Part shown: positions 32,658 to 40,258 of the stretch, piece after piece
How the letters are laid out: each line of letters begins with the position of its first letter
How positions within the stretch are numbered: position 1 is the stretch's first letter
IMG/VR virus record: IMGVR_UViG_3300044684_000342
Span: 1 to 43,744 of that record
Origin: a virus
Length of the DNA: 43,744 nt
Reading direction: 5' to 3' (one strand)
Notes under the pieces: model-generated
The model's database searches: none
What the model saw: only the letters and a program-made list of their open reading frames with translations
What the model was told of the DNA's origin: nothing
Translations under genes and position numbers: made by a program

Positions 32658-33035
32658 CTAAAGTTTTTTAATTGGTAATAGATACATTTTTGCAGTAATT
32701 CGCACCGGGTATCGGGAGTATGGCGGCTGGGTAGATATCAGTTCCATTAGTTCGGTGTCCTTACGCATCAATTCGGCAAAAATATGATTGCTAAAGCTGG
32801 TGGCTATCTCGCGCCTACGCTGCCAATCGGCTTCATCCGGGTGTAGGTTGCGCCACTCGGCCTCCATTGGGTCGAATTCGTGTTCGAATTTTAACTCAAC
32901 CGGGGTAATTTGCCCGGTTACCCGGATAATGCTTTTAACTGGCCGGTGCTGCATTTTGGCGTGCATAATAACTATTACGCCAATAAGGGCCAGTATAACG
33001 GCCAGCAGGATGCAAATTATTTGTGTGTCTGTCAT
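32658..33035 (-). CDS. Membrane-anchored protein of unknown function
   Basis: A 125-residue protein with an N-terminal span (about residues 4-25, IICILLAVILALIGVIVIMH) and a soluble part with tryptophan-rich, charged helices (EAEWRNLHPDEADWQRRREI) and a C-terminal strand pair. It overlaps the methyltransferase gene upstream by four bases (ATGA). Function unknown; placing a membrane protein within the replication block suggests membrane tethering or host-interaction work. Confidence 0.75.
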   Translation of the reverse strand: MTDTQIICILLAVILALIGVIVIMHAKMQHRPVKSIIRVTGQITPVELKFEHEFDPMEAEWRNLHPDEADWQRRREIATSFSNHIFAELMRKDTELMELISTQPPYSRYPVRITAKMYLLPIKKL

Positions 33036-33916
33036 GGTTTTATAAAGATTAATACGTTTTCGTGGATTTTTACAAGTTTCTTATTACCGCGCAGAAAAGT
33101 GTTGTTAACACGCAACTGCGCAGTGCCAATGGGTTGCAGCAGTATGGCCTCATTATACAACTTTGTACCTGCATCTATAAACGCCTGCTTTGTATGGCTT
33201 ACAAAATCCCTGTAATATCCTTTCTCGTCACGCATATCCCCAACCACAAAAATGGCAAAGCCGCCCGGCTTAAGTAGATATACGCATTTCTGTATTATGC
33301 TGCGGTAGGCTGCCATAAACTCCCGGTAGTCCATATTGCTAATATCACCGGGCAAATCACTGTACACCTCCAAATCAGCGTAAGGCGGGCAGCTAAATAC
33401 AACATCATACTCGCAGCCCAGTGCAGCAAGGCAGTCAAGGAATACGTTACTATCCCCCACATGCCACTCCGGCTGCGGCTTATCTGCCGGCAATATCTCC
33501 TGCGCCTGCCGCCGGTTGCTTAATACCTGTTCTTCGCGGATGTCTATTCCCGTGTATCTATACCCCAGATAATTAGCAACCAAACCACGAACGCTGCCTC
33601 CAGCAAAGGGGTCAATAATCTGGCCGCCCTCGGGGCAGTACCAACGGTACAGCAACTCGCACAGCGCTGGGTCGAAGATTGATACCTCGGACATTGCTTC
33701 CTCTGCCGTCCTGCCATACTTTTCGCTGAAAAAAGATGAACCATATGTTTTAACCTCCTCCCTGCTTTCTTCGCTTTTTATTCCTTTAGCCTTCCATGCT
33801 TTTTTTCTTTTTACCCAGCTACCTGAACGGGCGTCCAGCACAGAAAACGGGGGTTCTATGAATTTATCACGGAGTAGCGGGTCGCTGCTAATCTCCTCGC
33901 CAAACAAATCAGTCAT
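33032..33916 (-). CDS. DNA methyltransferase (amino-methyltransferase type, SCPPY)
   Basis: A 294-residue protein with the AdoMet-binding motif DPFAGGSVRG (102-111), the acidic motif YTGIDIR (121-127) and the catalytic motif FSCPPY (174-179), in the order I then IV. The SPPY-like form of motif IV fits N4-cytosine or N6-adenine transferases. The N-terminus contains SVLDARSGSWVKRKKAWKAK, and FDPALCELLYRWYCPEGG precedes motif I, a layout known in phage methylases. The PLP-enzyme gene ends eight bases upstream, so the two are made together. The target sequence is unknown; no restriction partner is present, so self-protection or part of a larger modification is likely. Confidence 0.87.
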   Translation of the reverse strand: MTDLFGEEISSDPLLRDKFIEPPFSVLDARSGSWVKRKKAWKAKGIKSEESREEVKTYGSSFFSEKYGRTAEEAMSEVSIFDPALCELLYRWYCPEGGQIIDPFAGGSVRGLVANYLGYRYTGIDIREEQVLSNRRQAQEILPADKPQPEWHVGDSNVFLDCLAALGCEYDVVFSCPPYADLEVYSDLPGDISNMDYREFMAAYRSIIQKCVYLLKPGGFAIFVVGDMRDEKGYYRDFVSHTKQAFIDAGTKLYNEAILLQPIGTAQLRVNNTFLRGNKKLVKIHENVLIFIKP

Positions 33917-33923
33917 ATAATAA

Positions 33924-34682
33924 TCAGGGTTTTAAGTAGGATTGTCTAATACCAACGCACCACATAAGGTCGCCTGCTTGCAAAAACTCTTGGCATTTTG
34001 CCTCATAAACCGGGTCAAGCGTAAAAGGTATATCTAAGTATGTAGGTACATAATCATCGTAGGCTTCCCGTGGCGCTACTAAGGTACACATAAATTGCCA
34101 GCCCATTGGTGCCCATCGTGTTAAACGCTTACGCGGGTCTGCGCCAACCATAACGCCAATTACGTGAAGGTTGGGGCGAAACAATTTAACACCATGCAGC
34201 ACACCGGCCAAACTCATACCGCCGCCCACTGGCATAACTATCCGCTTTACCTCCCGGGGTACATTCCGCACCTGCGCCATAGTTTCTACCACTGCAAAGT
34301 CGTGCTCCATTCCAAACGGTATATCTGTATATCCGGTCTGGAAAGCATACTCTTTGCTGCGGCTGGTAATTACATTGTTATACCCAGCCTTGTGCTGTAT
34401 TATAAAGCACCCAGCCTCGCGTGCCAATTCAAGTTCTTTGTTAAGCGCCCCCGTTGGTGTATGTGCAACACATGGCAGCCCTAAATGCTTTGCTATGTTT
34501 GCCACAATATTAACCTGTGGGCTGCTACGGCTGCCTGCGGTAGTTAAACCAACTTTGGCATCCTTTGCCAGTGCGTAGCAGGTGCGCACCTTGCCACCCC
34601 TTACGCCGGCTATTTCGAAGAGATCGTCGCGCTTAAACCAGTAAGCGCCATGTTTTTCAACGGGGGTTAATTCAGTAGCCAT
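33924..34682 (-). CDS. PLP-dependent fold type II enzyme (ACC deaminase-like), paired with the methyltransferase
   Basis: A 252-residue protein of the tryptophan synthase beta / ACC deaminase / D-cysteine desulfhydrase superfamily. Residues FKRDDLFEIAGVRGGKVRT carry the Schiff-base lysine (K31), TTAGSRSSPQVNIVANIAKH binds the substrate carboxylate (53-58), and PVGGGMSLAG (151-160) is the glycine-rich phosphate loop. It is about 80-90 residues shorter than ACC deaminase. Lying directly before the DNA methyltransferase, it is unlikely to serve plain amino-acid metabolism; it may supply or transfer a group used to modify DNA. That role is inference. It has a hairpin upstream (34697-34730). Confidence 0.85.
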   Translation of the reverse strand: MATELTPVEKHGAYWFKRDDLFEIAGVRGGKVRTCYALAKDAKVGLTTAGSRSSPQVNIVANIAKHLGLPCVAHTPTGALNKELELAREAGCFIIQHKAGYNNVITSRSKEYAFQTGYTDIPFGMEHDFAVVETMAQVRNVPREVKRIVMPVGGGMSLAGVLHGVKLFRPNLHVIGVMVGADPRKRLTRWAPMGWQFMCTLVAPREAYDDYVPTYLDIPFTLDPVYEAKCQEFLQAGDLMWCVGIRQSYLKP

Positions 34683-39541: not shown

Positions 39542-40258
39542 TTAAAAGTCAATAGGTGCATCCAAATCTACCGGCGGCGCAGTGTCGCCTTCAACGGGTG
39601 CAAAGAAATCGGCCTCAAACTTCGGCGCAGCAGCATCCACCTTTATTTCAGGTGTTACCACTACCGGGGCCGGCGGCGGCGTTACAACGGTTGGCGCTGG
39701 TGCCGGTGCCGGTATTTTAGGCGTATCTATAACCTCCGGCTTTTCACCCTTATATGGGTCTTCCTTGAACGCCGGGTTAAACTCGAGCGCCTCTTTACGG
39801 CTAACGTTACGGCCAAACAATGCGCCAATATGCTCGGCGGCATCCTTAATTGCGTAGCTTACAGCAGCAGGCGCAGCCAGTTGTATGGCATTATTTTTAA
39901 TGGCCGCCAAATCACTGGCAGCCTTGCCGGCATCTGTTTGCACAGGCATTGCGCCGGTGCCATCGTGAAAGTCCCACTCGTTAGTTGCTGGGTTGTAATA
40001 ATGCAGGCGTATAACCGCAACAACGCTGTTAAATAGTGGCGCTATGGTTTTAATATCTACGCGCCATTGGCCGCATATGCGGTCGAGCAGGTACTCGATC
40101 TTCTCAATGGGCAAATACTGCACCGGGGCCATTGGGTGTTTCTTTAACCACGATGCCGGTGGCGGCTGGTTTACCAGCGTTTTAAACCTGTCTTGCTTCC
40201 ATGCATCCGGGTTTTCGTTATGCAGCTCGGAAAGTGTAGGCAGTTGTCTTTGTTCCAT
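39542..40258 (-). CDS. Rad52-like single-strand annealing protein
   Basis: A 238-residue protein. Residues about 45-150 follow the Rad52/Rad22-type annealing pattern: YLPIEKIEYLLDRICGQWRV, SVVAVIRLHYYNPATNEWDF, GTGAMPVQTDAGKA and the C-terminal helix AVSYAIKDAAEHIGALFGRN. The remaining 85 residues are a proline- and alanine-rich acidic tail ending in PVDLDAPIDF, resembling SSB-type tails. It anneals complementary single strands during phage recombination and pairs with the RecE-like exonuclease. A candidate promoter lies within a hairpin just upstream. Confidence 0.77.
   Translation of the reverse strand: MEQRQLPTLSELHNENPDAWKQDRFKTLVNQPPPASWLKKHPMAPVQYLPIEKIEYLLDRICGQWRVDIKTIAPLFNSVVAVIRLHYYNPATNEWDFHDGTGAMPVQTDAGKAASDLAAIKNNAIQLAAPAAVSYAIKDAAEHIGALFGRNVSRKEALEFNPAFKEDPYKGEKPEVIDTPKIPAPAPAPTVVTPPPAPVVVTPEIKVDAAAPKFEADFFAPVEGDTAPPVDLDAPIDF

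Follow-up and report, generated by a model that had tools for sequence, protein, structure and literature searches.

What does a phage gain from a PLP-dependent enzyme encoded directly beside a DNA methyltransferase, and do the two act together? The question arises from a 43.7-kb tailed-phage record (IMG/VR record IMGVR_UViG_3300044684_000342), analyzed here over its whole length of 43,744 nucleotides and referred to as the window, in which both genes lie on the minus strand (Table 1). The original prediction, made from the letters of the DNA, described an SCPPY methyltransferase paired with an ACC deaminase-like PLP enzyme in the replication block and proposed a new DNA hypermodification, possibly involving nearby Nudix and ASCH-like proteins. 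The pair itself is real, with both open reading frames in place and both products above their Pfam cut-offs, although the spacing given as eight bases is 7 nt in the sequence. Its surroundings also fit a replication block, containing a VapE-type primase/helicase, ResIII and PIF1 helicases, and a Rad52-like protein.

Two proteins of the window

Based on its score against the Pfam family N6_N4_Mtase (PF01555; 46.5 vs 26.7 bits at cut-off, 5.8e-12) together with motifs I and IV, the window methyltransferase is classified as a predicted N6/N4 amino-methyltransferase. Motif I precedes motif IV, and a ParB domain is absent. The protein matches phrog_12517 (1.6e-90) and phrog_498 (5.3e-64), which also hold ParB-methyltransferase orphan enzymes such as Listeria B054 gp77 and Enterococcus phiFL3A gp36. 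These belong to the same methyltransferase family, with 44-45% identity to the window protein and the same motifs, but they carry the ParB domain that the window gene lacks, and no PLP partner was found for them in the stretches read. PADLOC gave only generic methyltransferase-type matches for this protein and none for the PLP protein.

The PLP protein scored above the Pfam PALP cut-off (PF00291; 46.7 vs 35 bits, 3.6e-12), and its AlphaFold2 model, for which the window protein was aligned with 50 phage homologues (51 sequences in all), reached a mean pLDDT of 95.5. Foldseek returned 495 PDB matches to this model at E<=0.001, the top ones all of fold-type II; D-cysteine desulfhydrase was the best of them at 6.5e-14, and 1.0e-12 was obtained for an ACC deaminase homologue, in keeping with the likeness proposed for the protein. 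As also predicted, it is shorter than its metabolic homologues (252 aa vs mostly ~317-341 aa for those with solved structures) and keeps the lysine (K31), the substrate-binding SSPQVN motif (residues 53-58) and the phosphate loop (GGG 153-155).

The active-site residues of ACC deaminase and D-cysteine desulfhydrase (lysine, S/Q loop, Y-E-x-K) are thus all present in the window protein. K31 aligns with the Thr position of 1j0c, an entry titled 'ACC deaminase mutated to catalytic residue', and the loop that aligns with SSPQVN in ACC deaminase 1f2d reads 'RQSNQTR'. The YEAK residues align with 'DPVYEGK' of 1f2d and 'DPVFEGK' of the mutant 1j0e, in a low-scoring stretch where the motif is identical by eye. 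PLP proteins pairing with this methyltransferase fall into two subfamilies, type 1, which resembles phrog_3650, and type 2, which resembles phrog_7093. Among type-1 sequences, Y226 is kept in 50/51 and E227 and K229 in 51/51, a single Tyr-to-Phe change being the sole exception to the full catalytic set in these 51 domains. Because the catalytic positions are invariant and align with ACC deaminase residues, the window protein is very probably an active amino-acid enzyme, and the same invariance disfavors a role as an inactive scaffold.

While the fold, the equivalent lysine and the Y-E-x-K motif are shared with ACC deaminase and D-cysteine desulfhydrase (1f2d, 1j0a, 4d8t), the window protein is only ~20% identical to these enzymes, is roughly 70-90 residues shorter and has a different gene context. 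Its scores fall far under the cut-offs of TIGR01274 (15.9 vs 392 bits) and TIGR01275 (29.2 vs 289.4 bits), which places it outside these metabolic families. The PLP family is nearly confined to phages, with 2 loci in 84,980 cellular genomes and none found in 72,556 plasmids.

Table 1. Positions of genes, motifs and neighboring features in the window
Feature	Position	Strand	Remark
PLP-dependent enzyme gene P0001	33924..34682	-	fold type II, 252 aa
K31 codon, PLP Schiff-base lysine	34590..34592	-	kept in 51/51 type-1 and 7/7 type-2 sequences
S54-P55-Q56 of substrate-binding loop SSPQVN (residues 53-58)	34515..34523	-	S54 and Q56 in 51/51 type-1 sequences
G153-G154-G155, phosphate-binding loop	34218..34226	-	GSG in nearly all relatives
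Y226-E227-A228-K229	33996..34007	-	corresponds to DPVYEGK active-site motif of ACC deaminase
Spacer, PLP stop codon to methyltransferase ATG	33917..33923	-	7 nt, read from sequence
DNA methyltransferase gene P0002	33032..33916	-	294 aa, N6/N4 amino type
Motif I DPFAGGSVRG, residues 102-111	33584..33613	-	(nearly) invariant in A3
Insertion place, methyltransferase residues 141-145	33482..33496	-	whole PLP domain here in relatives
Motif IV SCPPY, residues 175-179	33380..33394	-	C176-P-P-Y179 invariant in A3
DUF3850/ASCH-like gene	35500-35102	-	upstream side of PLP gene
Small-protein gene	35102-34737	-	between DUF3850/ASCH-like and PLP genes
Membrane-type protein gene	33035-32658	-	next after methyltransferase
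DUF3310 gene	32656-32327	-	
ResIII helicase gene	32330-30786	-	
Nudix gene	30784-30314	-	
VapE-type primase/helicase gene	30308-28083	-	
Rad52/22-like recombination protein	39542-40258	-	Pfam 22.0 vs cut-off 20.3 bits

Coupling of the two domains across phages

A tblastn search of phage records linked the PLP protein to the METHYLTRANSFERASE, returning a Pam4 protein that contains both domains, with the PLP match lying within the methyltransferase match. Profile scans of IMG/VR loci and of two cellular metagenome-assembled genomes, after removal of near-identical PLP domains (95%), gave a non-redundant set of 83 PLP loci. The PLP domain is fused to the same methyltransferase in 48 of these (38 nested, 4 C-terminal and 6 cut by contig ends), a frequency that argues against chance coupling; complete isolate genomes with the linkage include those of Pam4 and Erythrobacter ZS04. 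A further 26/83 are unfused but linked (adjacent or <=6 kb), 17 as next genes and nine within the locus; the original prediction had mentioned similar pairs in actinobacteriophages, and we find them as genes 1 and 2 of Mycobacterium phages Vincenzo and AlanGrant. The remaining 9/83 loci have a stretch without the methyltransferase, but four of these (L018, L020, L021, L063) carry it elsewhere on the contig, and three (L012, L022, L069) are partial contigs. Another, L027, is the Glutamicibacter phage Montesquieu with its thymidine-hypermodification context, and in the ninth (L091:5512-7779) PLP lies at the N-terminus of ParB and a different, TSPPY-type methyltransferase in one ORF, an independent pairing. 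From these sequences, the predicted PLP and methyltransferase domains are shown to be co-inherited and, in most relatives, to form one polypeptide, a coupling far stronger than the original prediction had guessed.

In most fusions, the PLP domain interrupts the methyltransferase Rossmann fold, separating the half with motif I and beta-2 from the half with SCPPY, frequently in the layout ParB - MTase N-half - PLP - MTase C-half. Of the insertions located, 44 (36 assigned by pattern, 8 by eye) come after the helix that follows beta-2 and before beta-3, and the one in L056 comes after beta-3; as these points are distinct, there were at least two insertion events in addition to the end fusions. 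Together with the C-terminal fusions and the L091 arrangement, these insertions indicate that the linkage has arisen more than once. An AlphaFold2 model of one nested protein (L062; pLDDT 81.6, pTM 0.62) shows both methyltransferase halves and the PLP domain folded, mostly at high confidence. Both PLP subfamilies pair with this methyltransferase, type 2 being found inside or beside it in Erythrobacter ZS04, L107, L124, L131, L132, L135 and L201, and the hosts of carrier phages range from cyanobacteria to mycobacteria.

A linkage survey had been named beforehand as a check on the proposed joint function, and its outcome is one-sided: PLP rarely occurs without the methyltransferase, whereas the methyltransferase commonly occurs without PLP, as in 100/183 tips of the methyltransferase tree. 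A whole-record search of 20 contigs (mostly long) with a PLP-less methyltransferase found no type-1 PLP homologue, though such a search can miss type 2, since in one of them (L130) a partial type-2 PLP ORF adjoins the methyltransferase. PLP status changes ~22 times on the methyltransferase tree, vs ~60 times with shuffled labels, and is therefore inherited yet repeatedly gained or lost. We found no residue signature of PLP partnership in the methyltransferase, 36 near-invariant columns being the same in PLP-positive and PLP-negative members.

Neighbor clustering for recurrent partner genes other than the methyltransferase yielded only replication and packaging genes. The suggestion that the Nudix and DUF3850/ASCH-like neighbors belong to the same system did not hold up and was dropped, as their homologues occur at 0/83 PLP loci.

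Several loci carry additional domains or gene copies. In L048, L058, L078, L079 and L080, a Cys-rich domain of ~170 aa (GGCC ... C..LG..GC ... KPVTC..YPL; weak DUF3109 match) lies between PLP and the methyltransferase C-half, inserted with PLP, and in some loci it is a separate gene between the two; further places are L071:6985-7569, L073:2600-3106 and L034, the record behind the last having a degenerate copy as seemingly the sole insert in its methyltransferase. This domain may serve the system as a metal or Fe-S partner. A C-terminal domain after PLP in L096:8769-9647 and L019:4872-5744 has amidoligase-like motifs (FG.E.E, GGE..TYP, H.H..VPG) and a weak match to phrog_2443 (0.046); if the amidoligase identity is real, it would add a third step, amide formation. 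Three phages (L098, L056, L108) each hold two close copies of this methyltransferase family, and in L056 only one of the two contains the PLP insert. The record of Erythrobacter phage ZS04 (L025) begins, ~1.4 kb ahead of the ParB-MTase-PLP gene, with a gene annotated as resembling PAPS reductase, a family related to DndC-type enzymes.

Relation to known thymidine hypermodification

The window PLP protein matches phrog_3650 (8.8e-28) and phrog_7093 (3e-11), both of which contain PLP enzymes from phage thymidine-hypermodification gene sets, and profile searches back from the window family recovered SN1_023 (5.6e-15) and the Vibrio 1.244.A protein (7.3e-20), itself a phrog_3650 member by score (3.7e-145). 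The first group comprises the ViI-like PLP enzymes (345 records, conserved across Ackermannviridae), of the 5-(2-aminoethoxy)methyl-dU (5-NeOmdU) pathway. By gene assignment, a PLP enzyme is named among the conserved 5-hmdU-transformation genes of Ackermannviridae (PMC6336734). In Vi01 and CBA120, ~40% of thymidine is replaced by 5-NeOmdU (PMC11721090). The ViI-like enzyme is homologous to the window protein and matches it at the K, S/Q and Y-E-x-K active-site positions; its gene, however, stands alone, in a genome where a thymidylate-synthase-family gene occurs together with pyrophosphorylase similarity, whereas in the window-type system the PLP enzyme shares a polypeptide with a SAM methyltransferase or is encoded next to it, and neither of those two features was found. 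Identity between methyltransferase-associated and ViI-like PLP enzymes is ~23-27%, and the substrate may therefore differ.

The second group, phrog_7093, is represented by SN1_023, the PLP enzyme of an M6-like cassette with pyrophosphorylases, a kinase and a radical SAM protein; the inclusion of a PLP enzyme in the M6/SN1 cassette is likewise a gene assignment (PMC9476957). SN1_023, of the 5-(2-aminoethyl)-dU (5-NedU) cassette, is homologous to both methyltransferase-linked PLP types, and type 2 (L107, L124, Erythrobacter) is closest to this group (4.7e-30 and 6.6e-24). None of the other M6-like cassette members (kinase, aGPT-PPase1/2, radical SAM, Nmad5) is a conserved neighbor of MTase-PLP. 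With type 1 resembling phrog_3650 and type 2 phrog_7093, both thymidine-hypermodification PLP types have methyltransferase-coupled counterparts.

Thymidylate synthase of the dUMP hydroxymethylase type (PF00303) was missing from all 13 MTase-PLP records tested (the window plus 12 others, several of them possibly partial) but present in 3/3 thymidine-type phages (Montesquieu, SN1 and Vibrio 1.244.A). An aGPT-PPase1 query likewise matched 0/13 MTase-PLP records, which include the complete Pam4, ZS04, Vincenzo and Alsa_1, and 3/3 thymidine-type phages, while an aGPT-PPase2 query matched only its own phage and is thus insensitive. Judged by gene content, the predicted MTase-PLP and 5-hmdU-type pathways are mutually exclusive within this sample. 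In Montesquieu, the PLP gene, annotated as ACC deaminase, abuts aGPT-PPase2, with thymidylate kinase and ribonucleotide reductase nearby, and this phage therefore probably has hypermodified thymidine.

Proposed function and alternatives

To our knowledge, the known amino-acid-type hypermodifications of phages depend on hydroxymethylation of a nucleotide by a dedicated hydroxymethylase, on a DNA kinase and on transferases of the pyrophosphorylase type. Lee et al., in their 2021 NAR paper 'Pathways of thymidine hypermodification', are said to describe amino acids being put on 5-hmdU and then reworked, including by PLP-dependent decarboxylases; in their 2018 and 2021 work, PLP homologues reportedly act as decarboxylases on DNA, the amino acid having been installed via a 5-hmdU kinase/pyrophosphorylase route. 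Given the homology between the PLP family and the enzymes of the thymidine-hypermodification gene sets, we favor DNA hypermodification as the best reading, as originally proposed: the two genes would form one functional unit that hypermodifies phage DNA, in which the methyltransferase half deals with SAM and the base while the PLP half reworks an amino-acid group on that base, with a probability of roughly 0.57. The idea that the genes work as a unit is thus borne out by the fusions, while the wider membership once suggested is not. Counting against hypermodification, we found no modified-nucleoside or biochemical data in the literature for any carrier phage.

Mechanistically, the methyltransferase half would bind SAM, flip out a base that carries an exocyclic amine (to go by the motif, C-N4 or A-N6) and attach a SAM-derived group to that amine, and the PLP half would then alter the amino-acid function of the DNA-borne group by decarboxylation, elimination or replacement. 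A SAM-using domain would so take the place of the 5-hmdU kinase/pyrophosphorylase route; if that route is absent, it is not the source of the amino acid, and SAM itself has an amino-acid chain. The most economical chemistry would be transfer of the 3-amino-3-carboxypropyl group of SAM followed by PLP decarboxylation, leaving a 3-aminopropyl base. This specific version, a single-polypeptide or two-gene DNA aminoalkylating enzyme that moves a 3-amino-3-carboxypropyl or aminopropyl derivative of SAM to an exocyclic base amine for decarboxylation or other reworking by the PLP domain, is our preferred specific guess, though less likely than not, and we know of no such aminoalkylated base in DNA. 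The likely benefit to the phage would be escape from host restriction.

The order of the two steps might instead be reversed, with PLP acting on SAM itself by decarboxylation or gamma-elimination. The methyltransferase half would then receive an altered donor, such as a vinylglycine-type intermediate or decarboxylated SAM, and move an aminopropyl or aminocarboxypropyl group instead of methyl; the end product might even be the same, the PLP chemistry merely preceding transfer. The nested architecture would suit such channeling, SAM is the sole amino-acid substrate expected for the methyltransferase half, and precedents exist in spermidine synthase, for aminopropyl transfer by a class-I fold, and ACC synthase, a PLP enzyme that uses SAM. 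A different donor should nonetheless leave its mark on the methyltransferase, whose conserved positions are the same with and without PLP, and the nearest phage homologues of the PLP enzyme belong to gene sets whose products modify groups already on the DNA (PMC6336734, PMC9476957); we regard this order of events as improbable.

That same lack of a mark, together with the frequency of the methyltransferase without PLP, means that the methyltransferase itself may do no more than methylate, in which case the PLP enzyme would have no amino-acid group on DNA to act on. PLP could then be a helper that clears or senses a small metabolite (SAH, a D-amino acid or ACC) or gives structural or regulatory support, as the many PLP-less methyltransferases of identical catalytic appearance and the ~22 changes in PLP presence, expected of a dispensable accessory, would allow. 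We consider this unlikely, given that the catalytic set is retained in all 51 type-1 domains bar the one Tyr-to-Phe, that phage homologues of PLP reside in hypermodification cassettes, and that a general metabolic helper would not have to be restricted to a single methyltransferase partner. Least plausible by far is that an orphan methyltransferase has a gene of ordinary metabolism next to it by chance, either for ACC deaminase or for D-cysteine desulfhydrase: fold and residues do resemble these enzymes, but the TIGRFAM scores and the near-absence of the family from cells speak against it, and the fusion at 48/83 loci contradicts it.

Implications

The papers examined do not describe a PLP enzyme embedded in a methyltransferase, although the architecture may have been mentioned earlier; the pair may be a variant within phage DNA hypermodification. 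The embedded PLP enzyme points to a seemingly undescribed, more compact chemical disguise of viral DNA, and if the aminoalkylating version is true, it would constitute a hypermodification route without a 5-hmdU intermediate. DNA labeling with primary amines is a possible use. The system offers a two-gene test case for a new DNA base and a probable anti-restriction strategy, and with SAM methyltransferase and PLP enzyme united in a single fold, many phages would reach charged DNA bases by a much shorter path.
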